From contig OZ025831.1 of assembly GCA_964019425.1 (NCBI GenBank), positions 730,227 through 794,226 on the forward strand: 64,000 nucleotides of DNA. The letters are read 5' to 3'. The DNA comes from Flectonema sp. DT1601. Taxonomy: Eukaryota > Euglenozoa > Diplonemea > Diplonemida > Diplonemidae. Position 1 is the first letter of the stretch, and every line of letters starts with the position of its first letter. The position numbers and the translations under genes are program-made. Below the pieces are notes generated by a model. That model was not told the DNA's origin. It saw nothing but the letters and a program-made list of their open reading frames with translations, and searched no databases. Shown piece by piece: positions 905 to 64,000 of the stretch.

Positions 905-1298
905 ACAAAACGTGTTTCTTTTTTTTGAAGTGAAGGCCGCATGTGTTGATTCTCATCTGGTCATTACTGCTTAACATAAAATTTTAATGTGCGTGTTCGC
1001 TGCGTATTCTATCGTTGCGTTAATTTCTTTTTATATTTCTACGATTTGTGAAACGACAACCAAGCAACGGATGGACCCCACAGTTCTTCAAGTCGCTGAT
1101 TTATCTTCGAGTCTTGTTGACTCTTTATATTTGAATATAATCTAATTTAGAATATTCATTTAGAAGTCTGTTGAAACCCATCCCCCTGCAGTTGCTTCCG
1201 ATGGTGTTCGTGTTGTGTTATTTTGTTTGTTGTTTTTGGTGTTCTTCAGTATTTATTTCAAGAATTTCAGGGGAAAAAAAAACAAAAAAGAACAACAA
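905..1298. other. intergenic region, no gene seen
   Basis: 394 bp between hexosaminidase and the Rab-like gene. It is AT-rich with short T runs. The only signal is a splice-acceptor-like TTTCAG ending at 1270, followed by a purine-rich 28-nt leader before the ATG at 1299. Confidence 0.6.
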
Positions 1299-1910
1299 AT
1301 GTCGGATCTTCCACTCGCTAAAGTAACAATAATGGGATCACCCAGGTGTGGGAAAACTTCATTATCGAAGAAGTTTATTTACGGAACATATAATCAGCAG
1401 TACCGTGAGACTATTGGAGTAGACTTCTATCTGAAGAAGGGGACAGAAGTAATAATGCAACTTTGGGACATTGCTGGTAAGGAAGCAGGATTGTCATTAT
1501 CTGCTTTGTACCTTAAAGGAACACATCTCGTGATTATGGTGTACGACATGTCTGATTCGAGTTCTCTTGAATCGATGGTCCAGTGCTATCTAAATTGCCC
1601 TTCTATGGTAAGAAAGCTCCCTGTTGTTATCTTTGGTACTAAATCAGATGAGAAGTCAGTCACTGATGATGAAGTTCAGATTGCTGCTAAACGAATGCTA
1701 CCTGACAAAGACATCCCAACCTACACCATGTCCGCTAAGACTGGTGAAGGTCTTTCCTCATCCTTTGAAGCTGTTTCTGAAATACTAAAAGGTCTGAATT
1801 TATCACCGACTCCAGTCAAAGCTGAAAGAGAATCTGATTGGAATTTCAAAGTCATCATTCCAGCAGCTGCGATACTTCTGTTTGGTGGAATGTATTTATT
1901 TGCAAAGTAG
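1299..1910 (+). CDS. Rab-like small GTPase with C-terminal membrane anchor
   Basis: 203-aa Ras-superfamily GTPase. The G1 loop GSPRCGKT lies at residues 13-20, the switch I threonine in RETIGVDF, WDIAGKE in place of the usual WDTAGQE at switch II, GTKSDE as the G4 box, and SAKTGEG as G5. Rabs normally end in prenylated cysteines; this protein has none and instead ends in a hydrophobic segment (VIIPAAAILLFGGMYLF) followed by AK, so it looks tail-anchored, as in Miro-type GTPases. Lys in place of the switch II Gln suggests altered GTP hydrolysis. I chose ATG 1299 because the frame upstream encodes a non-conserved hydrophobic/Lys-rich stretch and the acceptor-like TTTCAG ends at 1270, inside that upstream extension. 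The membrane (ER, mitochondrion or vesicle) is unknown. Confidence 0.85.
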   Translation: MSDLPLAKVTIMGSPRCGKTSLSKKFIYGTYNQQYRETIGVDFYLKKGTEVIMQLWDIAGKEAGLSLSALYLKGTHLVIMVYDMSDSSSLESMVQCYLNCPSMVRKLPVVIFGTKSDEKSVTDDEVQIAAKRMLPDKDIPTYTMSAKTGEGLSSSFEAVSEILKGLNLSPTPVKAERESDWNFKVIIPAAAILLFGGMYLFAK

Positions 1911-2484
1911 GAGTTGATGTCAAACTGACATGTCTTTTTCTTTTTGATCTTACAAATGAGTCAATCTACTACCAGTCGCCTTGCCTTATCTATCCGTGAT
2001 ACTATGCCGACGTTTATCAGCACACTGTGTTATGTCGTTAGCACGAGTACGTTTCTTGCTTCTGTTTTTTTGTTTGATAGACCCGAGTGTGTGGGTCCTT
2101 TGAGGGGTTCCTTTGAGTGCTGCGAGTTCCGATCGTTATTTTATTTTTTTTATGAATTATTAAAATCTTATTCTTCTGCTCAAATAGGCAGCTGAGGGAA
2201 TTCCCTCAGTTTGTCAGCAGCTATTCACTTTTTCTGATATTTTGTTTGAGCGCTTTCCATTTGCAGGCTATCTTTTTGTTAGGACAGGGACTTCGTGCTG
2301 TGAAGGCCGAATCGTCCCCTCCTATCTAATAGTTGCAATTGGGAAGCTGTTACAGACATCAGTCATTATCTCACTTTAGTTTACAATCTTACAGTATAGT
2401 TAGCACGTTTTCTGTACTTATTCTGAATAATGATTTCTGTGTGTTTGAATAAGTTACTTTCTTTATCATCAGCAGCAGCGCAAG
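1911..2484. other. intergenic region with an 18-bp palindrome
   Basis: 574 bp without a supportable gene. An 83-codon ORF at 1944-2195 has no recognisable features and no acceptor in front of it. The region contains a perfect 18-bp palindrome at 2192-2209 and the block ATTGGGAAGCTGT near 2338 that recurs near 4937. An acceptor-like ATCAG ends at 2472. Confidence 0.55.
2192..2209. repeat. perfect 18-bp palindrome
   Basis: CTGAGGGAATTCCCTCAG equals its own reverse complement. In RNA the two halves could form a stem only with a strained loop, so a dimeric protein-binding site or chance are both possible. Confidence 0.6.
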
Positions 2485-3645
2485 ATGTTCTCTCGAACCC
2501 GTTTACTCAATTGCGCTAAGAAACTAAGAACGCAAACAACAATCGATGTAGTCGGAAGTGATTCTCTAGCAGGAAAGAGAATGAGTGCAGGAAGTGTGTT
2601 GGGAATGATGGATTTAACTGCTGTGAGATCTGCTGTTGTACACTGCAAAGAATTTTTAGAAAATAACAACGGAACTGTTGCGACTGTTGCTGTGGATGGC
2701 TGTGACTTCAGCTCTCCCCTTCGAAATGGGGATATGTTGAAAATGGAATCCCGAGCAGTTCTTGTTGGTAATTCCTCTATCACTGTCAACCTTGAGTGCT
2801 CTCGTAGAGAACTTCGAACTCGTCGATGGGAATTAACCCAGAAGGCCAGTTTTGTTATTGTTGTTGTCGATAAGGAAACACTGCGACCACTATCAGGTAT
2901 TCATATGTTTTATTTTTACTTAACAGTCTTATTAAAATATTTTAATTAAAACTCACCAACAGGACTTCCTCAGATAGAATGTCAAACTGAAGAGGAAATC
3001 ACTGCGAAGGAAGCAGTCCTCTCTCGGAGAGCTGTCGTAAAGAAATGGGATCTTCTAAACGTAGAATTAGAACAGAAACCTGTTAAAGAATTGATAGCAA
3101 TGGCAGCACCTAGTAATGAAAATAATAGTCCTGGGATTCCAAAGCTGTCGATGTCTGACACGAGAATCGAACTTCGTAGGATGTTCCTCCCCAGATCATT
3201 AAATATGAATAACACAGTTTTTGGAGGTGACGTCTTAGAATGGATGGAAACAGGAGCTAGTCACTGCGCTATGAGTTTTGTTGGTCATCGTGATGTCCAC
3301 ACAATTGCAATGAATAGAGTGGTGTTTAAGCATCCAATATTTACTAATGACAGCGTTCAAATGATTTGTGATGTTGTTTATGTTTCGACTTACACTATTC
3401 ATATTGAAGTAAAGGTAAGTATTGATAGAATAGGTGTTGACCATCCGATAGTCAGTCATGTTGGACACTTTGTTTGTATGCAACACAGTCCTGATACTGG
3501 AACTAATCACATTGTTATGACTGGATTAGAAATACCTGATAATGATAACGATTTACGTAAACATGTTGCAGCAAAGCTCCGATATGACTTTTGGAAAAAG
3601 CATTACAAAACTAAATTAGTCGCAAACACTCAAGGTACTGTCTAA
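2485..3645 (+). CDS. acyl-CoA thioesterase, double hotdog (ACOT9-like), one intron
   Basis: Hydrolyses acyl-CoA to free fatty acid and CoA. Coding exons are 2485-2896 and 2963-3645 (364 aa); the 66-nt intron 2897-2962 starts GTATTC and ends CAACAG, and removing it restores one frame (junction ...LRPLSGLPQIE...). Two hotdog domains are visible: the first with GMMDLTAVRSAVVHC and CDFSSPLRNGDML, the second with NMNNTVFGGDVLEWME, ASHCAMSF and RVVFKHPIFTND, the pattern of mitochondrial ACOT9/BFIT-type enzymes. The first 20 residues are basic and hydroxylated (MFSRTRLLNCAKKLRTQ), which suits a mitochondrial presequence. Acceptor-like CAG sites end at 2472-2478, just before the ATG. The family call is strong; chain-length preference is unknown. 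Confidence 0.9.
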
Positions 3646-4013
3646 CTGTATTCACTGAACATTGTTATGGAATGAAAGTCTTCTTTACAAATGATATCCA
3701 TTTATTGGTCTTTATGGATCGTTGGAATATAACTGAACTTTGCAATTGGTCACTGCTGAGCTCGTCAATTCCTCAGAAGCAATATTCTGATAAAAGTCTT
3801 CTAAAGAGTCATTTCTTCGCAGATGACAAAACAACAAACGTTTCGTGAGATTACTCACATTTAACATTTCTTACTTCTCACGCATGCTTATGCAGTGCAA
3901 GCTAAAAACCAACGTTTCAATTTTTATGAATTTGGTATAAATATATTTCATTGGATTACTGTCTGTTTTTCATATTAATTATTTTCAGTGTTTTTATTAT
4001 AACAAAAAAATAA
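3646..4013. other. intergenic region, no gene seen
   Basis: 368 bp of AT-rich spacer. Acceptor-like ATTTTCAG ends at 3988, followed by an A-rich leader up to ATG 4014. Confidence 0.6.
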
Positions 4014-4877
4014 ATGGGGGCTTCGTCCTCCAGTGACTCTGCCATCGTTGATGAAGGAAAGGGAAAAGTTGTTCTACAATTAGGTCATCAAAACTTACGA
4101 GTGTTTCCTGTTGAACAGTTCCAACGTCATGCGAAGGTGGTGACTAAAATTGATTTGACTCACAATATGATAGAAAGCTTAGACTTTATTAGTTTATTCC
4201 CAAAGTTAGAAACACTTGTTCTAGACAGCAACAATGTGACTCACAAGAGTAGCGTTCCTCTTCATCAAAAATTGAGAACAGTTTCCCTTAATAGCAATCG
4301 TATAGGGTCTCGTGATACTGAAAGTGGGACCAGTTCAGGTGGCAGTATGTTCGTTGATCGCTTGGCAAGAGCGCTTCCAAACTTGTCATTTCTTTCTCTG
4401 CATCACAATCCTGGTTGTCCCTCTTATTTTAATAAGGCTGAGCTCACTGAAACAGAATTGTTTCGAAAATATTGCATTCGTAAACTACGGTCTCTTGAGT
4501 TCCTTGATGCAGCTCCGATAACTGATGAGGAACGTGAAGAAGCTGAAGAAGAATTCTTGAGTCGTAAGAAAACATCTCACGCAAGCAGCTCTGTTTCAAT
4601 AAAATCAACAAAAGCACGTTCTGCAAATCAGTCGTCTGCTGAAAGTTTCTCAGCATCAACACCTGTGAGGAAAGAGTTCTATGATCCAAAGAAAGTTAAG
4701 AAACCTGACACCATATCAATACCTTGTCCTAACTGTAAGGCTTCTCTTGTATTGTCGAAGGCGTTTGTTGGATCAGATCAGTCCTGTCCAACTTGCAGGA
4801 GAGTTTTTATTGTTCAAGAACCGGATGCTTCACAGGCAGCCCCTGCTCCGGTAATTGCTACTCCTCCACCGCCTTAG
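4014..4877 (+). CDS. leucine-rich-repeat protein with zinc ribbon and myristoylation signal
   Basis: 287 aa. The N-terminus MGASSSSDS fits the N-myristoylation consensus (Gly2, Ser6), predicting attachment to a membrane. Residues about 20-175 form SDS22/LRRC-type leucine-rich repeats (KIDLTHNMIESL, LETLVLDSNNV, LRTVSLNSNRI, LSFLSLHHNPG) with the usual capping sequence LRSLEFLDAAPIT. A Ser-rich linker follows, and the end carries CPNCKASLVL...CPTCRRVF, a four-cysteine zinc-ribbon-like motif, then a Pro/Ala tail. An LRR plus zinc ribbon on a myristoylated protein suggests a membrane-associated adaptor. No enzymatic motif is seen and I do not recognise a named orthologue. Acceptor-like site ends at 3988. 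Confidence 0.82.
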   Translation: MGASSSSDSAIVDEGKGKVVLQLGHQNLRVFPVEQFQRHAKVVTKIDLTHNMIESLDFISLFPKLETLVLDSNNVTHKSSVPLHQKLRTVSLNSNRIGSRDTESGTSSGGSMFVDRLARALPNLSFLSLHHNPGCPSYFNKAELTETELFRKYCIRKLRSLEFLDAAPITDEEREEAEEEFLSRKKTSHASSSVSIKSTKARSANQSSAESFSASTPVRKEFYDPKKVKKPDTISIPCPNCKASLVLSKAFVGSDQSCPTCRRVFIVQEPDASQAAPAPVIATPPPP

Positions 4878-5324
4878 GATGTTAGTTATTACTTCACAGA
4901 TATATCAACTTGTCGTTAATAACCTTGCTCCTCCTATTGGGAAGCTGTAAGGTTGTATCATAATGTGCTTGTGGTTAAGATAGCATTCGCGTCTGTTTTT
5001 TGTCGCAAGACTTTTTTTTTTTTTTTTTTTTTGTTGTTTTATTTTCTGTTATTTTTCTTATATTTGTATGGGAAGTCTACCGCCTGCCCCATACCCCGCG
5101 TGGTTGTCGCAAAAAAAAAAAAAAAAAAAGTTTTCTTTTTTTTTTTTTTTGCTCTGTTTATTTGAAATTGTAATATATTGTGCGGCAGTCACAAAAGTAT
5201 AATGGGTCAAGTTACTGAAGCAGCGAAAGATCATGTATCCCATATGCTTTGATGCCTCAATAGTGATTGTTTGAAAAATACACAATTTTTATAGTTATTT
5301 TACAGGTATGAACAGGACGTAATT
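4878..5324. other. intergenic region with long T and A runs
   Basis: 447 bp with a run of about 21 T from 5012, about 19 A from 5111 and another T run near 5140. ORFs here are homopolymer translations and are not supported. TTTTACAG ends at 5305 before the next ATG. Confidence 0.6.
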
Positions 5325-5699
5325 ATGCCTCCAATCAACCCCTGCCCACCATCGAAGATAAAAGAAAAAGTTAAATCAGCAGTCAGAACATACCTGGAGG
5401 TTATTAACGAAGCAGGAGACTGCAATGACCGTGCCGAACTACTGTCGAAAGTGAAGGAGAGAACGGAAGAAATTTATGCACATCTGAGTGCAGCAGCCTC
5501 CGAGGTAGCTCAGTATCGGGAGAGGCAAACAGCAAAAAATATGATCACAGAAATCAACCACAGAACTGCTATCGCATTACAGGGAATTGATAACATCAAA
5601 TCAATTCGAATGCGACTCCAACAGAGTGACATGGCTGAACTTCCAGAAGATGAAAATGATCTCCTAAAGAGAAGAAAAATTGAAAAAACACCCGAGTAG
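5325..5699 (+). CDS. small helical protein, unrecognised
   Basis: 124 aa, charged and almost wholly helical by composition: KIKEKVKSAVRTYLEVINEA, then long amphipathic stretches (ERTEEIYAHLSAAASEVAQY, NHRTAIALQGIDNIKSIR) and an acidic then basic tail (ELPEDENDLLKRRKIEKTPE), which could act as a nuclear signal. Length and helix pattern are loosely like small Mediator or chromatin-complex subunits, but no specific motif supports that. The start has an acceptor-like TTTTACAG ending at 5305, 19 nt upstream. The open frame, the leader signal and the coding composition make it a likely real gene of unknown function. Confidence 0.7.
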   Translation: MPPINPCPPSKIKEKVKSAVRTYLEVINEAGDCNDRAELLSKVKERTEEIYAHLSAAASEVAQYRERQTAKNMITEINHRTAIALQGIDNIKSIRMRLQQSDMAELPEDENDLLKRRKIEKTPE

Positions 5700-5943
5700 C
5701 ATAACCCTGATTCAGCTCAGTTGTTGCACTGATTCTGTGATACTTCACAAGAATCATACCCTGAGGGAATCGAACTAGAGGTGTTGTCAAGTTAAGTAAA
5801 GGTTCTTCACTTAGCTGCGTATCTCAGCGGTGCGGGAAGGTTTATTTGTAACCAAAAAAGTTGGTATTTCGGATCGTATTTTTTAGTTTTGTGTTTATGT
5901 GATTAATTGTCAAATTCTTCATTCAACCCACAGGCTCTTTAAC

Positions 5944-7578
5944 ATGAACCGATTATTATTTGCTGCGTCGCTTCTAGCGACCGGTGCGTCTCTCGCCCCG
6001 GTAGTGGAGACTGAGTTTGGTAAAGTTTCTGGAAAGGTTGATAGAGAAACCGGTACTGAATACTTCTGGGGAATTCCATTTGCAGCTCCGCCTGTTGGAG
6101 ACTTGCGTTTCAGTCGACCAGTTAACCCGCAGCCGTGGAATAACACAAAGCGTACAACTGACTTAAGACCATCTGCGTGCCCACAGTTAGATCTCGAAAA
6201 CAGAGTTTTTTGGGGTAAAGAAGACTGTCTCACCCTTGATGTTTACAAACCAACTGCTGCCGCTAATTTACCAGTTCTCGTTTGGATCTACGGAGGAGGT
6301 TTCACCATTGGAAACAGCGACCAGATTGGATTATATAACGGTAAGTACCTTGCTAAGAACCACAGCGTTATCGTTGTAGCCATTAACTACCGTCTCGGAA
6401 ACCTTGGTTTCTTAGCATTAGACTCTCTGAAAGCTTCCCAAGGGTTTGCAGGTAACTACGGACTTTTAGATCAACAGTTCGCTCTGAAGTGGGTTCAAAA
6501 CAACATCGGCCTCTTCGGTGGTGACAAGAACAGAGTTCAGATCTTTGGTCAATCTGCTGGTGGGTGTTCAGTTGTAGCTCAGCTAGCGATGCCTAACTCA
6601 AAGGGTTTATTCCACTCCGCTATCGCTGAGAGTCCACTCGCAGTGTCTGATGTCAGCTGGTTATCTTTGAAGAACTCAACGAGATTTGGAGAAATCTACT
6701 CCGAGCAAATGAACTGTTCGATTGGAGGAAGTGGTAGTCCGGAAGCTCAAATCAAATGTCTTAGAAAGAAGTCTTTGGGTGAATTAGTTGAACCATTTTT
6801 TGAGTGGAGACATGACGTTCCTGCTCCTGAGAGAGGAGAGCTTCCAAGACTTATGCCAATCATGCCGTGGTGGCCAACTATTGATGGAGTCACACTTCCA
6901 CAGACTCCAATTGAACTCGCTCGTATAGGAAAGCTTCACGATGTCCCAACTGTCATCGGAACTGTTCACGATGAAGGAACTATTTTCGTTCCACTTGTAC
7001 CATTCGCAATTAATGGAGGTGACTTCCCTGTTGTCTTTCCGCTTACAGAAGAAGGGTACACTAGAACTTTGAATCATTTCTTTAATGAAACCCTCAGCGA
7101 CAATGTTAAGATGTTCTATGGAACGGGAATGTCCCCAACAAAGAGAGCTGATACCGTTCTTCGTGATGCTTTGTTTGCCTGCCCTGCGAGAGCAATACTT
7201 CGTGCCATCACAGAAAACCCTTCAAGAAAGTCACCTGCCTGGACTTATCAATTTGATCATGTTATTAACACTGACATGTACCGTTTCTTTGGTGACTATC
7301 ACACGTCTGAAATTACTTACGTATTTGATCACCCACGTGATAATTGGAATGCATCTGACACTGAAATGGCACGCGTTATGTCTAGCTTCTGGACTTCTCT
7401 TGCTCGCGACCAGAGACCATCTTGTACAAACTGTCCTGAGTGGACTCCTTATTCCTTTGATGCAGCCACTGACACTGACTCTTACATGAGATTTGGTCAG
7501 GGTACTGCAATGCAGACAAACCTTTTGAAGGTTTTCTGCGACTTCTGGGACAAGTGGGGATACGTCAACAACCCATAA
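5944..7578 (+). CDS. secreted type-B carboxylesterase/lipase
   Basis: 544-aa alpha/beta-hydrolase of the carboxylesterase/cholinesterase family, hydrolysing carboxylic esters. MNRLLFAASLLATGASLAP is a clear signal peptide. Family blocks appear in order: YFWGIPFAAPPVGDLRF, EDCLTLDVY, PVLVWIYGGGFTIG (oxyanion hole), FGQSAGG with nucleophile Ser204, HDEGTIF with acid Glu344, and GDYHTSE with His453. A full catalytic triad is therefore present, and several NxS/T sites and cysteine pairs agree with secretion or lysosomal location. The frame is open back to 5899, but the ATG at 5944 is preferred because it begins the signal peptide and follows the acceptor-like CCCACAG that ends at 5933, which would remove the upstream ATG from the mRNA. 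The natural substrate is unknown. Confidence 0.93.
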   Translation: MNRLLFAASLLATGASLAPVVETEFGKVSGKVDRETGTEYFWGIPFAAPPVGDLRFSRPVNPQPWNNTKRTTDLRPSACPQLDLENRVFWGKEDCLTLDVYKPTAAANLPVLVWIYGGGFTIGNSDQIGLYNGKYLAKNHSVIVVAINYRLGNLGFLALDSLKASQGFAGNYGLLDQQFALKWVQNNIGLFGGDKNRVQIFGQSAGGCSVVAQLAMPNSKGLFHSAIAESPLAVSDVSWLSLKNSTRFGEIYSEQMNCSIGGSGSPEAQIKCLRKKSLGELVEPFFEWRHDVPAPERGELPRLMPIMPWWPTIDGVTLPQTPIELARIGKLHDVPTVIGTVHDEGTIFVPLVPFAINGGDFPVVFPLTEEGYTRTLNHFFNETLSDNVKMFYGTGMSPTKRADTVLRDALFACPARAILRAITENPSRKSPAWTYQFDHVINTDMYRFFGDYHTSEITYVFDHPRDNWNASDTEMARVMSSFWTSLARDQRPSCTNCPEWTPYSFDAATDTDSYMRFGQGTAMQTNLLKVFCDFWDKWGYVNNP

Positions 7579-8607
7579 AGGGTTATGATACTAGAAAACA
7601 AAATGTAAAATTACAGAGCCTTCCCCATTCCCATTCTCTCTTTTCTTTTTGTCTTTAAACGTTCGGCAAGCTCCACTCTTGCTTTTTTCCTTTCCTTTTT
7701 CTTCGGTCTTTGTTATTTTATAACTTCGGTCTTGGTTATTTTATAAGTTTTATGATCACCAGACAGTGCTGAGTGAAGAAAGTACTGATCAAAGGAGAAA
7801 ACACTTCTTTGAACTAAGATTTGAAGTTTTTTTTTGTGATTTATTTTTCTTTTTCTTCGTTCAGTGAGATTGTGACTCACTAGATGAACCTGTTTCTCAT
7901 GTTGCCACGTCCTTGTTCTTTGTTATTTTTTGACTAAAATAACAACGTATTTCGTAACTCTAACCCTGTGTGTAATGTTTATGTGAAGTATAGAATGCTG
8001 GCGATGGGTTCTTTCTGTGTCGGACAACCTGCTTACTTATCGGATCCTGTAGTCTGTGTTACTGCTAGTCCAGCTTGTGTTCTTTCTCTCTATTTGCAAC
8101 TACGTGTGCTGGCATGTCCCGTGTCTGGGACATGGCGAATTTATCATAATTGTTATATCCCCTTCTCTTTAAATCCTTGAATTGTTTCATTTTTATTGTG
8201 CTCTGTTTAGCGTGTAATATTCACGTTTGACAAGTATCACGTGTATTCTGTATTCCCCAAGCGTCGAACAAAAGTTCCCGACGATGAAAGGTTTCTTTGC
8301 ACTGTTTTTCTGCGACCTCCCCTGTGACAAAACAATAAAAAAAAAACAACAAAAAAACAAAACAAAACAAAAAGTGCCTAAATTGAATCGTTTGCCTACT
8401 CCCGGCATGTTCCCTATCAAAAGTCTCGATAAATAAAACCGTGTGTTAATACTTTACATATCTTAGGAACAATATTATTATAATACTCTTAATAGGATAG
8501 TGTCTTTATTTCTTGTTCTCTACATCCACATTGGATCGATAAGAATATCTCTTTTTTAATTAGTAAGGCTGACTGTAGTACCTTTTCTTATTACAGAATA
8601 TCCAAAC
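7579..8607. other. intergenic region, no gene seen
   Basis: About 1 kb, T-rich at first. It contains a two-copy 23-bp tandem repeat (7701-7723 and 7724-7746, one mismatch). Short ORFs of about 70 codons have no coding look and no acceptor in front. ATTACAG ends at 8596, before the kinase ATG. Confidence 0.6.
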
Positions 8608-10338
8608 ATGGATCCCGTCGATGAGCTGAACCTAAAACTCGGGATTGGCCCACGTCGTCCACCCCTTCCCAGTGAACTCATGTCAAGAGGATATAAGGGA
8701 ATAAAACAAGTTGGGAAAGGAGCATTCGGAACCGCTAATCTAATTTTTAACGAGCGAACAGGGACGTACTACATCGCTAAAGAAGTTAACATCGGAGGGA
8801 TGACTGATAAGCAAAAAGCGGAGGTACAAAATGAGATTGATATCCTCTCTTCATTAGATCACCCGAATATTGTGAAGTACGAAGAGAGTCTTTCAGCAAC
8901 AAAAGTATACATTATAATGGAATACGCTGATGGAGGTGATTTAGGTGTGAGCATTAGAACAAAGAAAGCTTTGGCATCTCCTTTCTCTCATTCTGAAGCA
9001 GTTTTTCTATTCGGTCAGACGGCACTCGCTCTTAAATATCTTCATGAAAGAAAGATACTACATAGAGATCTGAAGCCTCAGAACGTTTTCCTAACCAAGT
9101 CAGGAATTGTTAAATTGGGTGATTTTGGTATCTCAACAGTCCTTCATTCAACACTGATGATGGCGAAGACTATTTGTGGTACTCCATTCTTCTTTTCACC
9201 GGAACTGTGTCAGGGACAGGCTTACAATAATAAATCAGATATCTGGGCACTCGGCTGTCTGTTGTTTGAACTCCTCTCATTAGACGTTCCCTTCAGAGGA
9301 GTAAATATGACGGATTTAATGAAGAAAATTGTATCTGATTCTACTCCTAACCTTCCATATTATTGTGATAAACGATGGGGGGAACTCATTGGACAGATGC
9401 TTCAAAAAGATCCTTCAAAGCGTCCAACTATTAAGGAAATTGTTTCAACTACTTTTCTGAAAGAACAGTTTGATTCAGCGGCGACTGACTTCGACAAGAA
9501 GGCTGATGATATCGCGAATGGAGGTAGCCCAGTACCATCTCCTACAAATGGTAGGCGTCGATCGACACCAGGATTTGGAAGACGATCACCCAGACATGAG
9601 GATAAAGTTGGTGATAAACCTGCTGCTTTACCACCAAAGCCAGTAGTCGCTGGGAGAAGGGAGTCTCAGTTACAGTCTTTGAGTGCATACCATGATGACC
9701 CTTCTATTCAAAAAGCTGTCGCATCTCTTGACAAAGTCATCGCTGTCGGTGAAAAGAAACAAATTAACTCGTCACCTGCAGTTCCAAAGAGAATTATTGA
9801 AGTACTTCCTTCACAACCTTTCGATCCTATTCAAGTGTCGACTCAGTGTCGATCAATTGCGTCAATCTTCCGTCAAATTGAAGAACGGCCAGTCAGTGAA
9901 ATAACTTCCCCACTCCTCGTTTCTCATATTAAAGGAATTGAGGAAGTCGCTAAAACTAAGGAAGAATCATCATCCGTGGAAGAGCCACTTGATAAGACTT
10001 CGTTTTCAGATAATTGGTGCTCTGGTCTGGATCTGACAGTTGCTGATGTACAACACGTTGATGAGAGTAATGTCAGAGTAGGAAGTGAGACCTTTAGTGT
10101 TTCTATAAAACGAAAACATTCTTCATCCGAACAGGAAGAACCTGTCGATGATGCCACAACTCTATCACAACTGGAGAACGCGCAGCATGAGATTAAGGAG
10201 CTCTGCGGTTCCCTTTCCGAAGAGAAAGGCCGTGCTTCTCGCTTACAGATGCAACTCGACGAACTGCGTGAGAAGTTCCTCGCCCTGACACAAGAGAATC
10301 TCACACTCAGAAGAACTATTAAACAAAACTCTACGTAA
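8608..10338 (+). CDS. NEK-like serine/threonine protein kinase
   Basis: 576 aa. The kinase domain occupies about residues 28-290: glycine loop GKGAFG (36-41), catalytic Lys58 in IAKEVNIG, HRDLKPQN (152-159), DFG (172-174), CGTPFFFSPEL activation-loop end, and SDIWALGCLLFELL. The IAKEVN, HRDLKPQNVFLT and DFGIS wording is typical of NIMA-related kinases, which control cilia, centrioles and mitosis. The region from 290 to 500 is Ser/Pro-rich and probably regulatory, and the last about 50 residues (AQHEIKELCGSLSEEKGRAS and on) are a coiled coil for dimerisation, as in many NEKs. All catalytic residues are intact, so it should be active. Acceptor-like ATTACAG ends at 8596, 11 nt before the start. 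Which NEK subtype is not resolvable. Confidence 0.9.
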   Translation: MDPVDELNLKLGIGPRRPPLPSELMSRGYKGIKQVGKGAFGTANLIFNERTGTYYIAKEVNIGGMTDKQKAEVQNEIDILSSLDHPNIVKYEESLSATKVYIIMEYADGGDLGVSIRTKKALASPFSHSEAVFLFGQTALALKYLHERKILHRDLKPQNVFLTKSGIVKLGDFGISTVLHSTLMMAKTICGTPFFFSPELCQGQAYNNKSDIWALGCLLFELLSLDVPFRGVNMTDLMKKIVSDSTPNLPYYCDKRWGELIGQMLQKDPSKRPTIKEIVSTTFLKEQFDSAATDFDKKADDIANGGSPVPSPTNGRRRSTPGFGRRSPRHEDKVGDKPAALPPKPVVAGRRESQLQSLSAYHDDPSIQKAVASLDKVIAVGEKKQINSSPAVPKRIIEVLPSQPFDPIQVSTQCRSIASIFRQIEERPVSEITSPLLVSHIKGIEEVAKTKEESSSVEEPLDKTSFSDNWCSGLDLTVADVQHVDESNVRVGSETFSVSIKRKHSSSEQEEPVDDATTLSQLENAQHEIKELCGSLSEEKGRASRLQMQLDELREKFLALTQENLTLRRTIKQNST

Positions 10339-18913: not shown

Positions 18914-19164
18914 CAATACTATTCGGTAACGACATCTTATCTCTTTTGTGTGTTTTATTATTTTATTTTTAATATCGATTAGCTGCCTTGGGTAGGCTTA
19001 ACTATCCCTGTGCTGTGATGTCTGGTTTTTTGTTCTGTTTAGAGGCCGCTGCTACTTCAGCTACAACTTTCTGTGTGTTTGACCAACAGGTGATAATGTA
19101 GTTGAGTTTATGTTTATGTTTTTATTTTATTTATATCACTTCAGTTAATAAGTTGGGTAAGAAG

Positions 19165-37507: not shown

Positions 37508-37538
<31 letters not shown>

Positions 37539-53105: not shown

Positions 53106-53136
<31 letters not shown>

Positions 53137-53510: not shown

Positions 53511-53736
53511 AAATAAACAGACCGAGATGCACCCGTCGGAGTTTGAGTTTCTGCAGATAAAGATATGTAACCCTAACACTTCGTCTGGCAACTACATCTT
53601 GGAAGTAGTTATGATCGTGCGCTTCATACTAAGTTATCGACAGTTCTGAATTCAAGCATCTCTTTACAATTGTAGTCCTTGCGGGTAACTTCTATTTATT
53701 AATAAATAATTCTAAGAACGCAACATAAGCAAAACC

Positions 53737-55842: not shown

Positions 55843-56842
55843 TTTATTTGTTACTCTTGTTGGAGAAGAAGAAAAACAAAATCAAACAGGCTACTGTCAT
55901 GGTGCTCTAAGAAGTTGTTTGAAAGTCTCGTCGGAATGTTGCGATAAGACACGACACATGAGTGGGAGATTGAGAGATAATTTTCGGAGCGTTGCAATTA
56001 GAGCATTCACTTGAAATAGAAATAAATTGCTCCCATTTTCAATACATATTCTGCTGTTCCAAATAATTTCCTCCCCACCTCTCTCCCCTTACTTATTGTC
56101 TTGTGGCTTCTCAATTATTAGCAGAACACGGTTTTAATCCAACTTGCTGGACCTTCCTTCGGATTCTGATGCCATGGATGCATGGCACTATGACTTGACC
56201 TGCATTTTGCTGAGTTCTTAGGAAATAGAATAGAGAAATAACTTCAAACTTTTGTTTGTCAAATAGTTTGAGACTTTTGAACAAAAAGTAAACAACACTA
56301 CATTCCCAATTCCCACTTTTATTTTGTTCAGTTAACTGCCTTAAGTCTAATCCCCATGTCTTTGTTGGTTGTGGAAGCAGATTACAATTTACGTTTATCG
56401 TTTTCTGTCTAGCAGGTTGGGAGTAGATGCTTTTAAGAAACTAAACTTTATCGATTGTGCACATCTGCGAAACCTATTTCAAGAAACGATGTTGTTCTTT
56501 TCTTAAAATTTAGCTTCGCGCCTCGTGATCTCAGATAGTGTGACCCCCGGATTTACATTTCTTCTTACCCAATAGGTTATAAATAATACAGTAGGACTGA
56601 ACGAATATGATGGGTTTACTAGTGTGACTGCAACAGAGTCGGCAGTTATGTGTGTCATCCGCAACTTCTCCCTTCCTGTACATGTTAATCTTATAGCTTT
56701 TTCCCCATAAAGACAAATCATAAGATGGCAAAGAACAAAAGGAAGCCTCGTGATTCCTGCTGAAGGCAACTTATTATTGTTTCGCTCTCTCCACCAAGAC
56801 CTCCGCGCTGACCAGCCTTCACTGGGGTTTTACAATTAGAAG
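55843..56842. other. 1-kb region after IFT81, no gene seen
   Basis: AT-rich DNA with short ORFs on both strands, none supported. This marks the change from the dense gene array to repeat-rich DNA. Confidence 0.55.
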
Positions 56843-56902
56843 ATGACAGACACATACAAGCCCGACTACAATCAAGGAGATTCAGACCTATGTGAACAAC
56901 TT
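56843..56902 (+). CDS. possible first exon of a gene, continuation unclear
   Basis: ATG 56843 directly follows TTACAATTAG (ends 56839). It encodes MTDTYKPDYNQGDSDLCEQL and then meets GTGAGTATG, a good splice donor, near 56903. Acceptors are available near 57014 (ATGTTTCAG) and 57057, but no convincing downstream exon was found, so it may be a remnant or chance. Confidence 0.25.
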
Positions 56903-57084
56903 GTGAGTATGTGGCTTGGGTGTTGACAATTGCACCATGGGATGGAAATAAGTATTAATAAGGTTATCGTTCATTACCAAGGCCTTGTTAGCCACCTTAT
57001 TTGTGATGTTTCAGGCTTTTGCCTTCTTTTATTCATCACCAACGCTTCTTTCAACAGCAGCTTCTTCGGGCAGCTACCCGCAAG

Positions 57085-57231
57085 ATGTCGAAGTTTCGCT
57101 CCACTGCCTTTAAGTGCAGGTTATCAAAGCTTCCCTCCACTACCTTGAAGTACCTGCTGCGAACTCGGTGCAAACTTGCATACCAGTCTAATATAAATGT
57201 GAATTGGGGAACTGCATGCCAACTCTTTTAA
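57085..57231 (+). CDS. short basic ORF, doubtful
   Basis: 48 codons (MSKFRSTAFKCRLSKLPSTT and on), Arg/Lys/Ser-rich, after an acceptor-like TTTCAACAG ending at 57057. The surrounding DNA contains loosely repeated CTTC-rich motifs, and no family is recognised. It could be part of a decayed gene with the exon at 56843. Confidence 0.2.
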   Translation: MSKFRSTAFKCRLSKLPSTTLKYLLRTRCKLAYQSNINVNWGTACQLF

Positions 57232-57370
57232 TAGCACCTTCTTGGGGTCTCCACCTCCAATGCTTCTTTCCTTCGGGCTGTTGAACTCCTTCTGCACACG
57301 TCCCTTCACCATGATCTCCGAAACTTCATCGCCAACGCCTCTTCAATAGCATAGAGCAGCTTGTCAGGCA

Positions 57371-57442
57371 GCAAACACGCAAACCCGCAAACCCGCAAAC
57401 CCGCAAACCCGCAAACCCGCAAACCCGCAAACCCGCAAACCA
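57371..57442 (+). repeat. short array of the 8-bp unit GCAAACCC
   Basis: Seven perfect units (57379-57434) flanked by one-mismatch or partial units. Same unit and same orientation as the large array at 61289. Confidence 0.95.
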
Positions 57443-57888
57443 ACACTCAGACTGGGAACTGCACAAAAGGCAAGTGAAGTACGATATCCTCTTATAATAT
57501 TTTCCTTTTCATTGATCAACATTAAATGTTGTTTAAGTATCATTTTTGTTCTCTTGTTATTATTTCAGATTTATCATTTTACTGTTCTCTTATCATTATT
57601 TCATTGTACTCATTTATTCAGGCTAGGAAGGGTCTTAACGCAAAGCGTTTTAAGAAACGTTTTCCCATTACCCCTTCGTGAATGAGTTGCTTCGTGTTAA
57701 CTTGGTTCTCCTTTGTCTTTCTCATCATCATTTTATTCAGCTGAGAAAATGGGAAAGCTAAGACGACATGAGGCTTATGATGCTAGTATCTTGTTATGTG
57801 GTTAATTCGTGTGATTGTTTTTATCAGACTCTCCTTTATGACTTTTCCTTTTCAACAGTACTTCACTGAGAATGCCGAGCGGTTCCCC

Positions 57889-57920
57889 GCAAACCCGCAA
57901 ACCCGCAAACCCGCAAACCC
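57889..57920 (+). repeat. four units of GCAAACCC
   Basis: Four perfect tandem copies of the 8-bp unit in the same orientation as the other two loci. Confidence 0.95.
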
Positions 57921-58048
57921 GCACTAGAGATACCCCTTCCAGGCTCGCGTTGCTCGCACACAACTTTTTTTTTTTAAGCTTTCTGAACAAACATTATTTT
58001 TACAACCAAGTCACGTCTGTTTTTATTCCCTGGCTAGGTACCCGTCCA

Positions 58049-58115
58049 GGGTACAAATTTGAACTTAACTTTACGCTCGCTTCGCTCGCGTTAAGTTAAG
58101 TCCAATTTTGTACCC
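58049..58115. repeat. long inverted repeat (hairpin)
   Basis: Arms 58049-58076 and 58088-58115 are reverse-complementary at 25 of 28 positions, with an 11-nt loop. RNA or single-stranded DNA would fold into a stable hairpin. The arms begin GGGTACAAA and end TTTGTACCC. Confidence 0.75.
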
Positions 58116-58169
58116 TTTTCCTTGCTACTTTCTTCTTACTAATTTTTCTGGTTGAAAAACACAAAAAAT

Positions 58170-58250
58170 GTGCCTGGGAATTGAACCCTTGCCACGGCTA
58201 CCGAATAGATTTAAGAGATTTAAGGTATCCACTCGGCTGTGCAGCCCTGG
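58170..58250 (-). repeat. tRNA-like segment with pol III A and B boxes
   Basis: On the - strand, CAGCCGAGTGG (58229-58239) matches an A box and GGTTCAATTCC (58177-58187) matches the B box consensus. The ends do not form an acceptor stem and no anticodon arm is visible, so it is probably a tRNA pseudogene or SINE head, not a working tRNA. Confidence 0.45.
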
Positions 58251-58417
58251 GACTTTTTTTTTTTTTTTTATTTATTTATTTGTGTGTTCTTAGCCTCTTT
58301 ATGGAAATCCTTCCATTTTCCCTTCCCTCCAGTCTTAACGTACCAGGTGCCTACCCTGGACGCCCTTCGGGCGCGGGATTTGAACTAATTGCGTGTACGG
58401 GCGCGATGGGTTATTGC

Positions 58418-58490
58418 AGTGGCAGGGGGTCGAACCAGCGATCACCCAGCCCCAGGGCGAGGGTTATACCACTACCCCTGGGATATCGCA
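58418..58490 (-). repeat. second tRNA-like segment
   Basis: On the - strand, GGGGTAGTGGTATAACCC resembles a D-arm/A box and GGTTCGACCCC (58426-58436) a B box. Stems are imperfect. It lies in the same direction as the neighbour at 58170 and is probably tRNA-derived too. Confidence 0.4.
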
Positions 58491-59230
58491 ACTTTTTATT
58501 ATTTTTTTTTTTTTTTTTATTATTATTACTTTTCTGCAATTTTTATTTATAAATAAGTTTTCGAAAAGGTGGGAAGTAACGGGCTGGGAGCTTTTGGCTC
58601 CTGCCCTATTCCCGATGTAAACTTTCTTTTTTTTTTTTTTTTTTTTTTTTAACAGGCCCAAAGGGCGACAATGAAAGATGCTGACCAAGGAATAATATTC
58701 AAATGAATTTTTGTTTCAAAGAAACGAACAGGATTAAGGGAGAGGCAGAAAAAAAAAAAAAAAATAATATGAAGAGGAAATAATCAAACATGAAAAAAAA
58801 AAATAAAAATAAATAAATGTTATATATAAGCAATTTCTTTTTTTTTTCGATCAATTTTTTATTTATTTATTACTTTTCTGTCCCAACAGGACGACAAATG
58901 AAAAATGTCCTCCCTTAGCTGAAAATGCACACTGCACCCTGTTTTATCAAGTCCTTTGTTTTTGTTTTTCTGAAAGATATCTGTAGTTGTTGTTATATTA
59001 ATATGCTAGCATGAAAACGACAGCTAGGTTTATGATGATTGGATATGTGGCTTAGGTTATCTGTTTGTTACATTTGGAAGTATTCTACAACAGGTTTATC
59101 GAACCTGTATCTGCAATGTGTGCGACCCTGGGATGGGAATATAGGAATTTAGTTATATTAATAAGGTTATCGTTCATTATTTCCAATAAAATAGAAATGT
59201 GGGAAGAACTATGGGATGGCGGAACGCAGC

Positions 59231-59262
59231 CCCCCCCCCCCAACCCCCCCCAAGGGGGGGGA
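59231..59262. repeat. poly-C / poly-G hairpin
   Basis: A run of C broken by AA, then eight C, AA, and eight G, so C8-AA-G8 is a perfect inverted repeat. Homopolymers of this kind are also error-prone in sequencing. Confidence 0.6.
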
Positions 59263-59499
59263 GCCACTAATAAAGGCCAATCTCCTGAAAAAGAATCAAG
59301 AAAAAACAAAAATGCCCTCACCCAGGGTCGAACTGGACGGTTTACAGCCATTTTGGGTTTTGTAAAGAATGGTTAGTTCTGAAACTATTTGTGTAGGAAA
59401 GACCCTTTACCAAAAAAGAAATGAAATCAAAGATTGCTTTTTCACAGCTTGGCACCTAAAATCCAAAACTCATTAAGAAGGAAAAAATTATTTCAAAAA

Positions 59500-59818
59500 G
59501 AAAATTCTTGCTAACTAAATTGGCAGCCATACACCTAAATTTCAAAACCATACCACTTACTAACAAAATTTCTTTCTCATCACTTTTTATATTTTAAGAA
59601 AATGGTTAACAGGGATTTATGAAGACTTTTGGATAGATCAACTATGTGTTCCCATCTTTTTTAGGAGATCTGTAGAAGAAAATAAATCTTTCAGAAAATA
59701 TTATAAAGGGAAGAATTCTTTTTTAACTACCTACTAAATTGGCAACCATACACTTAAATTTCAAAACCATACTAAAAAAGAATTTTCATCACATTTTATA
59801 CTTTAAGAAAATGGTTAC
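59500..59818 (+). repeat. diverged direct duplication (about 108 bp, two copies)
   Basis: 59500-59608 and 59711-59818 share ordered blocks such as ACTAAATTGGCA, TTTCAAAACCATAC, ATTTTA and TTTAAGAAAATGGTTA, with indels between. Confidence 0.65.
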
Positions 59819-59938
59819 CCATCTTTTTTAGACCTGCCCGGGCACAAAAATCCAGCATTTTTCCTTAGGCAAAAATAAATCTTACTTACTTCCTACTGAA
59901 GAAAATTGGCAGCTTAAATTTGTTTTCAGGAAAAAAGT

Positions 59939-60216
59939 AAGCAGCTAAAATTTGCTTGCGGGAAGAAGATAAGCAGCTAAAATTTGCTTGCGGGAAGAAA
60001 ATAAGCAGCCAAAATTTGCTTGAAGGAAGAAAATAAGCAGCCAAAATTTGCTTGCGGGAAGAAAATAAGCAGCTAAAATTTGCTTGCGGGAAGAGAATAA
60101 GCAGCTAAAATTTGCTTGCGGGAAGAGAATAAGCAGCTAAAATTTGCTTGCGGGAAGAGAATAAGCAGCTAAAATTTGCTTGCAGGAAGAAAATAAGCAG
60201 CCAAAACTTGCTCAGG
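59939..60216 (+). repeat. 32-bp minisatellite, about 8.7 units
   Basis: Units start at 59939, 59971, 60003, 60035, 60067, 60099, 60131, 60163 and (partial) 60195, exactly 32 bp apart, each with GCAGCTAAAATTTG and usually CTTGCGGGAAGA. A more diverged unit precedes at about 59907. CTTGCGGGAA also occurs at 60631 and 61158 outside the array. Confidence 0.95.
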
Positions 60217-60307
60217 GGTGCTACATAAGCATTGATTGCAGAAAGGTGGCAAAAATGAAAGGAATTATTTATTAAAACCCAAATTGTCTAAACCATAACA
60301 AAAAGAC

Positions 60308-61170
60308 AGCTTGGCACCAAAACTCTAAAACCTATTCTCCTCAGGGATTTGTGAAGCCTTTTCGAGATCGATAGGCCAAGGGATAACCATAAAAAAAGTG
60401 TAACCATGATTTCTTGGAGGTGAGTGGCACAAAAAGCAGTAAAAAAAAAAAAAAAAAAACCCATGACAAAGGCAAATAACTGCAAAAGCAGCAATTCTCT
60501 TTCCGCAAACGCCCCCCCGTGGGTCATTTGGTAGTGCCAACCTGCAACAGGTTAACATGCAACACTCTACCTTTCTTCCCGTAATGCGTGACACCATTCA
60601 ACACTTACGTAGCACTTAGTACCAGGCCTGCTTGCGGGAAGAAACAGAAGCCTCTCAGTACGGAAGTAGCTAGGCCTGGCGCTTACATAGCACTTCTGAG
60701 CAACCTAATATTATCCCTGTAATGCGTGACACTATTACGTTAGCACTTAGCACCAGGCCTGCTAGCAGGAAGAAACAGAAGCCTCATTCCCAGTACGGAA
60801 GTAGCTAGGCCTGGCCAGCTTACAGTGCTGCGTAAGTTTTGGCTGGCAAACAACTGCAAAACTTTTTTCTCCACCCAGAAATTTGTGAAGACTTTTCGGG
60901 GCCGATAGACCGAGAGATAACCATAAAAAAAGATGTACTCATGTTTTTTTGGAGGTGAGTGGCGCAGAAAGTGGTAAAAAAAAAAAATTCCGTGACAAAG
61001 GCAAATAACAGCAATTTTCTTTTTGCAAACGCCCGCCGTGGATCATCAGACTGTCATTTTGTAGCGCCGACTTGCCACAGGTCAATATGCAACGCTACTT
61101 TTCTTTCCGTAATGCGCGGCACCAGTCAACACTTATGTTGCACTTAGAACCAGACCTTCTTGCGGGAATG
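60308..61170 (+). repeat. diverged direct duplication (about 340 bp, two copies)
   Basis: 60308-60650 and about 60834-61170 align through many shared blocks: TTTGTGAAG, GATAACCATAAAAAAAG, TTGGAGGTGAGTGGC, TGACAAAGGCAAATAAC, GCAAACGCCC, GTAATGCG and TTGCGGGAA. Confidence 0.75.
60581..60814 (+). repeat. about 97-bp direct duplication nested in the larger one
   Basis: 60581-60679 and 60719-60814 share GTAATGCGTGACAC, GCACTTAG, ACCAGGCCTGCT, AGAAACAGAAGCCTC and AGTACGGAAGTAGCTAGG with few changes, so this copy pair is younger. Confidence 0.85.
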
Positions 61171-61288
61171 CAAAGAAGAATTAGTGTGTAATTAGGTGAG
61201 GCTTGGCCTGGGTACCTGGCCCAGGACTTGGTGGATTTCCTCAGAACCCAAAATATCCCCAATGCTGACAATTATACAGGAAAAACCC

Positions 61289-62728
61289 GCAAACCCGCAA
61301 ACCCGCAAACCCGCAAACCCGCAAACCCGCAAACCCGCAAACCCGCAAACCCGCAAACCCGCAAACCCGCAAACCCGCAAACCCGCAAACCCGCAAACCC
61401 GCAAACCCGCAAACCCGCAAACCCGCAAACCCGCAAACCCGCAAACCCGCAAACCCGCAAACCCGCAAACCCGCAAACCCGCAAACCCGCAAACCCGCAA
61501 ACCCGCAAACCCGCAAACCCGCAAACCCGCAAACCCGCAAACCCGCAAACCCGCAAACCCGCAAACCCGCAAACCCGCAAACCCGCAAACCCGCAAACCC
61601 GCAAACCCGCAAACCCGCAAACCCGCAAACCCGCAAACCCGCAAACCCGCAAACCCGCAAACCCGCAAACCCGCAAACCCGCAAACCCGCAAACCCGCAA
61701 ACCCGCAAACCCGCAAACCCGCAAACCCGCAAACCCGCAAACCCGCAAACCCGCAAACCCGCAAACCCGCAAACCCGCAAACCCGCAAACCCGCAAACCC
61801 GCAAACCCGCAAACCCGCAAACCCGCAAACCCGCAAACCCGCAAACCCGCAAACCCGCAAACCCGCAAACCCGCAAACCCGCAAACCCGCAAACCCGCAA
61901 ACCCGCAAACCCGCAAACCCGCAAACCCGCAAACCCGCAAACCCGCAAACCCGCAAACCCGCAAACCCGCAAACCCGCAAACCCGCAAACCCGCAAACCC
62001 GCAAACCCGCAAACCCGCAAACCCGCAAACCCGCAAACCCGCAAACCCGCAAACCCGCAAACCCGCAAACCCGCAAACCCGCAAACCCGCAAACCCGCAA
62101 ACCCGCAAACCCGCAAACCCGCAAACCCGCAAACCCGCAAACCCGCAAACCCGCAAACCCGCAAACCCGCAAACCCGCAAACCCGCAAACCCGCAAACCC
62201 GCAAACCCGCAAACCCGCAAACCCGCAAACCCGCAAACCCGCAAACCCGCAAACCCGCAAACCCGCAAACCCGCAAACCCGCAAACCCGCAAACCCGCAA
62301 ACCCGCAAACCCGCAAACCCGCAAACCCGCAAACCCGCAAACCCGCAAACCCGCAAACCCGCAAACCCGCAAACCCGCAAACCCGCAAACCCGCAAACCC
62401 GCAAACCCGCAAACCCGCAAACCCGCAAACCCGCAAACCCGCAAACCCGCAAACCCGCAAACCCGCAAACCCGCAAACCCGCAAACCCGCAAACCCGCAA
62501 ACCCGCAAACCCGCAAACCCGCAAACCCGCAAACCCGCAAACCCGCAAACCCGCAAACCCTCAAACCCGCAAACCCGCAAACCCGCAAACCCGCAAACCC
62601 GCAAACCCGCAAACCCGCAAACCCGCAAACCCGCAAACCCGCAAACCCGCAAACCCGCAAACCCGCAAACCCGCAAACCCGCAAACCCGCAAACCCGCAA
62701 ACCCGCAAACCCGCAAACCCGCAAACCC
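61289..62728 (+). repeat. 180-unit array of telomere-like 8-mer GCAAACCC
   Basis: 1,440 bp, exactly 180 tandem units with a single base change (G to T at 62561). The bottom strand is (GGGTTTGC)n, a G-triplet repeat of telomere type able to form G-quadruplexes. The unit has no stop in any of six frames, so it creates overlapping false ORFs of about 435-570 codons encoding (NPQTRKPA)n and (GLRVCGFA)n. The + strand is C-rich, the orientation a left chromosome end would have with sequence to the right of the array. It may be an interstitial telomere, satellite or assembly junction. Confidence 0.97.
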
Positions 62729-62922
62729 GCAAACCTAACTACAGCGGGGAACCGGAACTTCGAAGTACAGCCGTCAGCATCATTTTCTCGCCATCGTTTG
62801 GCGCATCGATACATCCTATCAGAATATATTTCATTTTATTTAGAGCTGTTTAACTCATGTTTACCTTTCCTTTTCTTTCAGCCGACGGGTTCGACCCATT
62901 AAACACTTAAACAAAAAGAAAA

Positions 62923-64000
62923 ATGGGTGATACTTATGACTTCGAATTTCCTAACTCATTAGTTACGCTATGGGGAAATACCGGTGAGGAACTGCTACCG
63001 AGAAGACACATAAATATGCCAGATGTATTGGGTCGGATCCCATGGGCTGATTGGACAAGTGAAGCAGGCAAAATGATGATGATAATGGTGCTTGCAAGGT
63101 GCCTTGGGTGTGATAGAGAAGTAATTCAAGGTATTTCACCAAGAAAGATTGCAATATTAATTGACGCGCTGCGAGGTCGGAATAATTTAATTGTTGATAG
63201 CATCGCCGAAGCTGTACAGAACGGGACACTAGCAAGCCTTTCTGGGATGCCTCAAGATCCGTTTAGGAAAGTTGAAGCGATTGTAACGACAGTTGCAAAT
63301 AGACAAAGCCAGCAAGACGAGAATCTCACAGGACTGTATCGTAGTACCGCTCAAGAATTTGCGAAGCATGAAGGAGCGATCCGTGCAGTAAGTAGCGAAG
63401 CAGCAAATGCCACGGCCGCCGCCACAACAGCTGTTAAAAGTACTAATGATAGACAAGATTCGCTCGAGTCACGAACGGATGCTTTCGCAACAGATGTACT
63501 GAATAGACTGAACAGGCAGTCAAAGCTTATTGAGGAGCAGCAGGAAATGATCTCTAAGCAAGATAAACAAATTGCAAACTTGATGCGGGCGTCGTACAGA
63601 TACGTCCACCCAATGAGCGCGCAACCGGCGCCTCGTACGACCGCACCTGAACAGCCGGGGCCAAGGGCTCAGTATGAAGAACCGACTTCCGCTGAAGAAG
63701 CAAGAATTCACAATCCAGTCTCGCATACTGTCCGTTCCGTTGCGGAAGACCCTGATAGGTGGATGGAGTACGCAGATGCCAGTAACTTCCAACTGACGGA
63801 ATTAATTCGAGAGTTGCGAACATGGGTTCCTAGCAAGAAAGGAGATCTGCAAGATGGGATGGAGGCGGTGATCGGTGCGATCGAAGTCATCTTGCATCCG
63901 GAACGGGACGCTGAAGACGCTGTGCTTGCCCTTGCCGACAGCTTGCAGGTATTAAGGTGTAAGGCAAGGGATGGATGGAAGGCGGCTGAAGCTTTTAAAG
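62923..64000 (+). CDS. partial ORF after the array, unrecognised, possibly mobile-element or viral type
   Basis: Open from ATG 62923 to the window end (359 codons, no stop). It starts MGDTYDFEFPNSLVTLW; then helical, Ala-rich and coiled-coil parts (residues about 125-225: NRLNRQSKLIEEQQEMISKQ), a Pro-rich linker (AQPAPRTTAPEQPGP, about residue 235), and a second helical domain (DRWMEYADASNFQLTELIRE). Helical domain, coiled coil, Pro linker, helical domain is a layout known from Gag-like and nucleocapsid-like proteins, but no zinc knuckle, protease or polymerase is visible yet, so this is a guess. Codons such as GCG, CCG and CGG are commoner than in the genes before 56 kb. CTTTCAG ends at 62881, giving a 41-nt leader, so it may be expressed like the host genes. 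Confidence 0.7.
   Translation, partial: MGDTYDFEFPNSLVTLWGNTGEELLPRRHINMPDVLGRIPWADWTSEAGKMMMIMVLARCLGCDREVIQGISPRKIAILIDALRGRNNLIVDSIAEAVQNGTLASLSGMPQDPFRKVEAIVTTVANRQSQQDENLTGLYRSTAQEFAKHEGAIRAVSSEAANATAAATTAVKSTNDRQDSLESRTDAFATDVLNRLNRQSKLIEEQQEMISKQDKQIANLMRASYRYVHPMSAQPAPRTTAPEQPGPRAQYEEPTSAEEARIHNPVSHTVRSVAEDPDRWMEYADASNFQLTELIRELRTWVPSKKGDLQDGMEAVIGAIEVILHPERDAEDAVLALADSLQVLRCKARDGWKAAEAFK

Follow-up and report, generated by a model that had tools for sequence, protein, structure and literature searches.

Introduction

Addition of a spliced leader (SL) by trans-splicing is described as common to all Euglenozoa (PMC10161547), and we compare with the systems known from that group a 64,000-nucleotide stretch of DNA (contig OZ025831.1, positions 730,227 to 794,226; hereafter the window) in which the genes run one way and acceptor-like AGs stand shortly before their start codons. 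In Diplonema the genes form one-way arrays of five to 120 genes, and the SL is on essentially all mRNAs; D. papillatum and other diplonemids have one-way gene arrays as in the window (PMC10161547). Introns with (G)/GTATG donors and CAG ends are described in L. lanifica, D. japonicum and R. humris, where their median lengths are 107, 41 and 74 nucleotides (nt), respectively (PMC12621601). Kinetoplastids have polycistronic one-way clusters, like the one-way genes of the window, but almost no cis introns (PMC7859406). E. gracilis has CAG acceptors, GTGTG donors and C-rich tracts (PMC11170887).

We read the window as euglenozoan nuclear DNA, probably from a diplonemid or a close relative, with its genes released by SL trans-splicing at these acceptors, and give this reading a probability of about 0.88. 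The + strand would be transcribed into one or more long polycistronic RNAs. The CAG 3 to 41 nt before each ATG would be the 3' splice site, and the spliceosome would release each gene with a 5' splice site given by an SL RNA that we infer to be encoded elsewhere. Each mRNA would then consist of the leader and a short gene-specific 5' untranslated region (UTR). Directly visible in the window are the one-way genes, the positioned acceptors with the composition of 3' splice sites, and the lack of an excess of partner donors. Trans-splicing had been proposed by a sequence-only reading of this DNA, and it is supported here by the one-way cluster, the splice-site properties, the donor test and the affinity of the IFT81 protein. 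Since SL addition is described as common to all Euglenozoa, this is the expected state in a euglenozoan. One-way genes with leader acceptors are already known in that group; a difference between cis and leader acceptors is less expected. Given controls, genomic sequence is enough to recognise SL trans-splicing, and the acceptor positions help fix start codons across the cluster.

A one-way gene cluster

A six-frame codon-usage scan, its model trained on 15 + strand exons each with a Pfam match, gave 42 segments scoring at least 12, of which 30 are on the + strand. All 12 segments on the - strand overlap a + gene and none of the 42 falls outside the gene list, in agreement with the earlier claim that the recognisable genes are all on the + strand. 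By simple arithmetic the chance of 25 genes all sharing one strand is about 6e-8, assuming independent orientations. One-way gene clusters, a mark of Euglenozoa, are thus present. The earlier count of 27 genes holds for 24 strictly defined starts. The gene at 56843 (a 27-codon open reading frame, ORF) is unsupported and those at 30245 and 53348 are doubtful short genes; all three are without a codon-usage segment at a score of at least 12.

The long ORFs are readable under the standard code. Pfam matched 18 of the 28 submitted protein pieces, with glycosyl hydrolase 20, Ras, thioesterase, carboxylesterase, protein kinase, CS, AFG1, RING, single-subunit RNA polymerase, histidine phosphatase, PFK, LRR, MSP and IFT81 among the names. 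The window is eukaryote nuclear DNA, from a flagellated organism if IFT81 is a guide.

Acceptor sites before start codons

Each of the 27 claimed sites ends in AG: there are 24 CAG, two TAG (29377 and 56839) and one AAG (53716). They lie 3 to 41 nt before the ATG (mean 16, median 14), and these counts reproduce the earlier ones. The leader part is shorter than 15 nt at 16 of the 27 sites and at 14 of the 24 that form the strict set. This set holds the 24 genes whose start was taken as the first ATG of a long + strand ORF, ignoring AGs, and omits 30245, 53348 and 56843. A CAG lies within 30 nt of 20 of these 24 starts versus 48 of 177 intergenic + strand ATGs (P=1.5e-7, uncorrected), and within 45 nt of 22 versus 69. 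For control ATGs on the - strand the figures are 84 and 115 of 231. The comparison with shuffled DNA that had been set as a check agrees: 500 dinucleotide shuffles gave means of 7.0 (30 nt) and 9.9 (45 nt) and maxima of 14 and 16 of 24. Counted in 20-nt bins, CAGs number 2 to 8 between -200 and -20 and reach 21 in the bin next to the ATG. The acceptor that an SL system has just ahead of its start codons is observed at most genes of the cluster.

The sites also behave as 3' splice sites, with a G-poor, T-rich and AG-free stretch ahead of them. The 27 sites have a median distance of 28 nt to the preceding AG; for 129 control CAGs it is 15 nt (P=0.0016; P values for acceptor composition are uncorrected). 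From -25 to -4, G makes up 7% versus 19% in controls and T 44% versus 34%, with C at 17.5% in the leader tracts. TTAAT, one of six motifs tried, occurs upstream of 10 of the 27 sites and 13 of the 129 controls (P=0.0012). Under a leave-one-out matrix of 20 positions, 13 of the 27 claimed AGs outscore every other AG of their own intergenic region (1.6 expected), and 17 are among the top three. Because the sites entering the matrix were picked near ATGs, this ranking shows that they are consistent with one another but does not amount to proof. Sites are stronger on the forward intergenic strands than on the reverse complements of these (P=0.0002), a comparison biased by training on the same forward sites.

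Cis introns and the search for partner donors

Ten cis introns of 61 to 110 nt are proposed, eight of them frame-supported in 25 genes. They were placed by eye and their frames checked afterwards. Five gene models that join six introns read to a single final stop: the thioesterase, RING, RNA polymerase (with two introns), LRR and IFT81 genes. For the RING intron starting at 19403 the reading frame spoke against an acceptor at 19460, which was rejected in favour of 19476. The acceptor-composition and leader-donor scans used 19460, and the ranking, frame and held-out tests 19476. Taken by the most frequent base, the donor consensus is G/GTATG; GTATG itself occurs in four of the ten, GTTTGT in three, GTGTGT in one and other GTAT forms in two.

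Alternatively, the 5' UTRs could contain ordinary short cis introns that end at these CAGs and have their donors upstream in the same transcript. Such introns do occur in the window, and a cis-type donor lies 50 to 125 nt upstream of 9 of the 27 leader acceptors. This is what shuffling gives (9.3), and wider ranges likewise show no excess, with 16 versus 15.1 to 200 nt and 23 versus 21.4 to 400 nt, the limit of the search. When the cis introns were held out one by one, the donor was found in 8 of 10 versus 3.7 in shuffles, or in 6 of 8 versus 4.4 for the supported ones only; with the matrix trained on the same introns it was 9 of 10. The donor model comes from 8 to 10 introns and the test has little power, so the lack of an excess gives no sign of a cis partner only within that power. 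With the same limit, the sites look like the ends of outrons as an SL system has them, lacking an upstream donor of their own. Leader acceptors are moreover unlike cis acceptors in composition (below), and we regard 5'-UTR introns as very improbable.

We give equally little credence to a second explanation, in which the 5' UTRs are very short and an initiator-like CAG marks the start of transcription with no splicing. The leaders are indeed short. Upstream ATGs in the 24 genes number 2 to 11 per 20 nt from -200 to -40 and drop to 1 and 2 in the two bins nearest the start; this agrees, weakly, with removal of the upstream RNA, and an mRNA start at that place would give the same. Against an initiator stand the AG- and G-poor region and the T-rich tract, which are features of 3' splice sites, and the low G that cis introns and leader sites have in common (6% and 7%). 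The weakest explanation, chance CAGs chosen post hoc, is refuted for the set as a whole by the acceptor-blind starts (20 of 24, never more than 14 in shuffles), although single sites, weak in themselves and 14 of them outscored within their own region, may still be wrong.

Cis and leader acceptors

The internal introns had been said to share the CAG form of the leader sites. The CAG ends are shared, but the tracts before them differ, cis acceptors being A-rich (AACAG) and leader acceptors T-rich (TTCAG). Between -15 and -3, A makes up 66% and T 13% in cis acceptors, versus 30% and 46% in leader acceptors. AA at -5/-4 is found in 9 of 10 cis versus 4 of 27 leader sites (P=5e-5), in 7 of 8 supported introns versus 3 of 24 strict leaders (P=0.0003), and in 5 of the 6 introns with coding sequence on either flank versus 4 of 27 (P=0.003), all in a small sample from one window.

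We tentatively suggest, at somewhat less than even odds, that two rules for 3' splice sites may operate, an A-rich AACAG following a strong GTATGT-like donor for cis introns and a T-rich TTCAG for the leader. The tract could direct the spliceosome to a donor in the same RNA or to that of the SL RNA. If so, acceptors could be sorted from their sequence. If genome-wide, the contrast would be a testable handle on how the spliceosome separates cis and trans substrates. D. japonicum has an A-rich tract at the 3' end of its introns, a precedent for the cis tract here (PMC12621601). In E. gracilis, unlike here, cis and outron acceptors are reported to be highly similar (PMC11170887). A limited search of open-licence papers found no such contrast described in diplonemids, and the paper on diplonemid introns (PMC12621601) uses neither "outron" nor "spliced leader" in its main text.

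Affinities of the window

Over its first 458 residues the IFT81 protein scores 215 bits with the T. brucei chain (6IAN) versus 126 bits with 8BD7, which we take to be Chlamydomonas, on nearly the same residues. Across 288 shared columns (residues 16 to 313) the window and T. brucei have 105 identities, the window and Chlamydomonas 74, and T. brucei and Chlamydomonas 72. IFT81 is nearer to Trypanosoma than to Chlamydomonas and so points to Euglenozoa; taken by itself it would also be compatible with heteroloboseans or jakobids. PDB searches with PFK, the NEK-like kinase domain, two LRR proteins and three hitless proteins gave no lineage signal. Five scans of viral contigs (PFK, octamer repeat, last gene, IFT81, RNA polymerase) confirmed no relatives, and a plasmid search with PFK returned 53 records, the best 5 of the 53 all bacterial and of no use for lineage.

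The organism is most likely a euglenozoan, and for its exact lineage, which we infer, we lean towards a diplonemid. All ten introns end in CAG and are short like those of Diplonemidae, and their donors follow the (G)/GTATG form, exactly in 4 of 10. With eight supported introns in 25 genes, the window differs from kinetoplastids (PMC7859406). It shares CAG acceptors with E. gracilis but not GTGTG donors and C-rich tracts (PMC11170887); its donors are mainly GTAT or GTTTGT, with one GTGTG among ten, and its tracts are T-rich at leader sites and A-rich in cis introns, with C as low as stated above. In length the leaders are nearer to the 5' UTRs of Eutreptiella (21±25 nt, 56% below 15 nt; PMC3621762) than to those of D. 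papillatum.

Several results weigh against SL trans-splicing or against the proposed lineage. D. papillatum has 5' UTRs of about 70 bp, versus the mean of 16 nt here, a trait perhaps not defining for the group (PMC10161547). Over its full length IFT81 gives 214 bits with T. brucei and 203 with the other chain, the T. brucei chain having only 454 residues, and the whole comparison covers one protein and two chains. At gathering thresholds Rfam found no SL RNA or small nuclear RNA in the 64 kb, and none of seven sub-gathering hits at E up to 5 was an SL or spliceosomal RNA. An SL core of kinetoplastid/diplonemid type had no match in the window, and an SL end of Eutreptiella type had one, versus 0.6 expected. 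In the euglenid R. costata part of the SL was on only 15.3% of transcripts (PMC8219788), so there may be genes whose mRNAs do without it. At the sites themselves, CTAA is not enriched, more than half (14 of 27) are outscored by another AG of their own intergenic region, and the ranks of 28653 (30), 56839 (29), 43060 (14) and 51148 (14) are low. ATGs within the 27 leaders number 2 in 432 nt where 5.6 are expected from the 200 nt upstream, a depletion that is not significant (P=0.089). Both are out of frame, at 5308 and 14721; splicing at the AG ending at 5314 would leave out the first. The small training set of the donor test counts on the same side.

Other features of the window

Coordinates are collected in Table 1. 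A tRNA search of the window returned none.

Table 1. Gene cluster, leader acceptors and cis introns of the window. Rank is the place of the claimed AG among all AGs of its own intergenic region under the leave-one-out matrix.
Feature	Positions	Strand	Remarks
One-way cluster	1..63999	+	25 supported genes (24 strict and an incomplete first) and two doubtful short; ORF list, codon scan, Pfam
CAG acceptor, Ras-like GTPase gene, ATG 1299	1268..1270	+	rank 1/14
CAG acceptor, 4HBT thioesterase gene, ATG 2485	2470..2472	+	rank 1/34; more CAGs end at 2475, 2478
CAG acceptor, LRR gene, ATG 4014	3986..3988	+	rank 1/12
CAG acceptor, ATG 5325	5303..5305	+	rank 2/18; alternative AG ending 5314
CAG acceptor, carboxylesterase gene, ATG 5944	5931..5933	+	rank 1/14
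CAG acceptor, NEK-like kinase gene, ATG 8608	8594..8596	+	rank 6/36
CAG acceptor, CS-domain gene, ATG 10873	10858..10860	+	rank 1/35
CAG acceptor, ATG 12685	12668..12670	+	rank 5/50
CAG acceptor, ATG 14728	14711..14713	+	rank 1/21; leader ATG 14721 out of frame
CAG acceptor, AFG1 ATPase gene, ATG 17465	17452..17454	+	rank 2/18
CAG acceptor, RING gene, ATG 19165	19142..19144	+	rank 1/12
CAG acceptor, ATG 21405	21393..21395	+	rank 1/11
CAG acceptor, single-subunit RNA polymerase gene, ATG 23722	23702..23704	+	rank 2/7
CAG acceptor, ATG 28674	28651..28653	+	rank 30/88; weak
TAG acceptor, ATG 29399	29375..29377	+	rank 1/25
CAG acceptor, doubtful short gene, ATG 30245	30204..30206	+	rank 4/14
CAG acceptor, double-RING gene, ATG 30776	30757..30759	+	rank 1/5
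CAG acceptor, histidine phosphatase gene, ATG 32031	32014..32016	+	rank 1/13
CAG acceptor, ATG 33164	33153..33155	+	rank 4/10
CAG acceptor, ATG 38093	38076..38078	+	rank 1/15
CAG acceptor, LRR gene, ATG 43064	43058..43060	+	rank 14/154
CAG acceptor, tandem PFK gene, ATG 46841	46827..46829	+	rank 1/21
CAG acceptor, MSP-domain gene, ATG 51158	51146..51148	+	rank 14/59
CAG acceptor, doubtful short gene, ATG 53348	53332..53334	+	rank 4/52
AAG acceptor, IFT81 gene, ATG 53737	53714..53716	+	rank 2/8
Claimed TAG acceptor, ATG 56843	56837..56839	+	rank 29/50; gene unsupported, 27-codon ORF
CAG acceptor, ATG 62923	62879..62881	+	rank 4/255
Cis intron GTATTC..CAACAG, thioesterase gene	2897..2962	+	frame-supported
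Cis intron GTATGT..AAACAG, RING gene	19403..19476	+	acceptor set by reading frame
Cis intron GTATCT..AAACAG, RNA polymerase gene	26446..26523	+	frame-supported
Cis intron GTTTGT..CCACAG, RNA polymerase gene	26599..26674	+	frame-supported
Possible cis intron GTATGA..AAACAG, doubtful short gene	30458..30541	+	frame did not confirm
Cis intron GTGTGT..TAACAG, LRR gene	45686..45774	+	frame-supported
Cis intron GTTTGT..CAACAG, MSP-domain gene	51393..51472	+	frame kept open
Cis intron GTATGT..CAACAG, MSP-domain gene	51544..51609	+	frame kept open
Possible cis intron GTATGT..AAACAG, doubtful short gene	53460..53520	+	frame did not confirm
Cis intron GTTTGT..AAACAG, near IFT81 end	55780..55889	+	frame-supported; last exon 6 codons

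At the end of the MSP-domain gene (52025 to 52251) a donor-like GTATGT is accompanied by an open frame with a membrane-like segment. For a possible third intron at about 52025, neither of two GT-AG acceptors tried reads into that segment; the intron may be nonconventional, or the assembly may have an indel here.

The repeat-rich stretch from 56.9 to 62.9 kb is free of genes. The octamer AAACCCGC is repeated there about 181 times, in near-perfect form, at 61283 to 62735, and two short arrays of it lie at 57371 to 57441 and 57886 to 57923. The long array is a candidate satellite or interstitial telomere-like repeat, and a search of viral contigs with four consecutive octamers gave no exact match. 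A 32-base tandem unit is repeated 9.8 times with 91% matches at 59898 to 60212. Beside the octamer array, a long ORF at 62923 to 63999 runs out of the window; it has no Pfam match and no relatives in viral contigs, and could be part of a mobile element.

The longest intergenic gap outside the repeats is at 39401 to 43060. On both strands these 3.6 kb lack segments that look coding at score 12, and Rfam has no match there at gathering.

A single gene at 46841 to 50140 carries two PFK stretches in tandem by Pfam, and the best PDB match of its second half is 1kzh, a pyrophosphate-dependent PFK. Fused PFP-type enzymes are known from apicomplexans.

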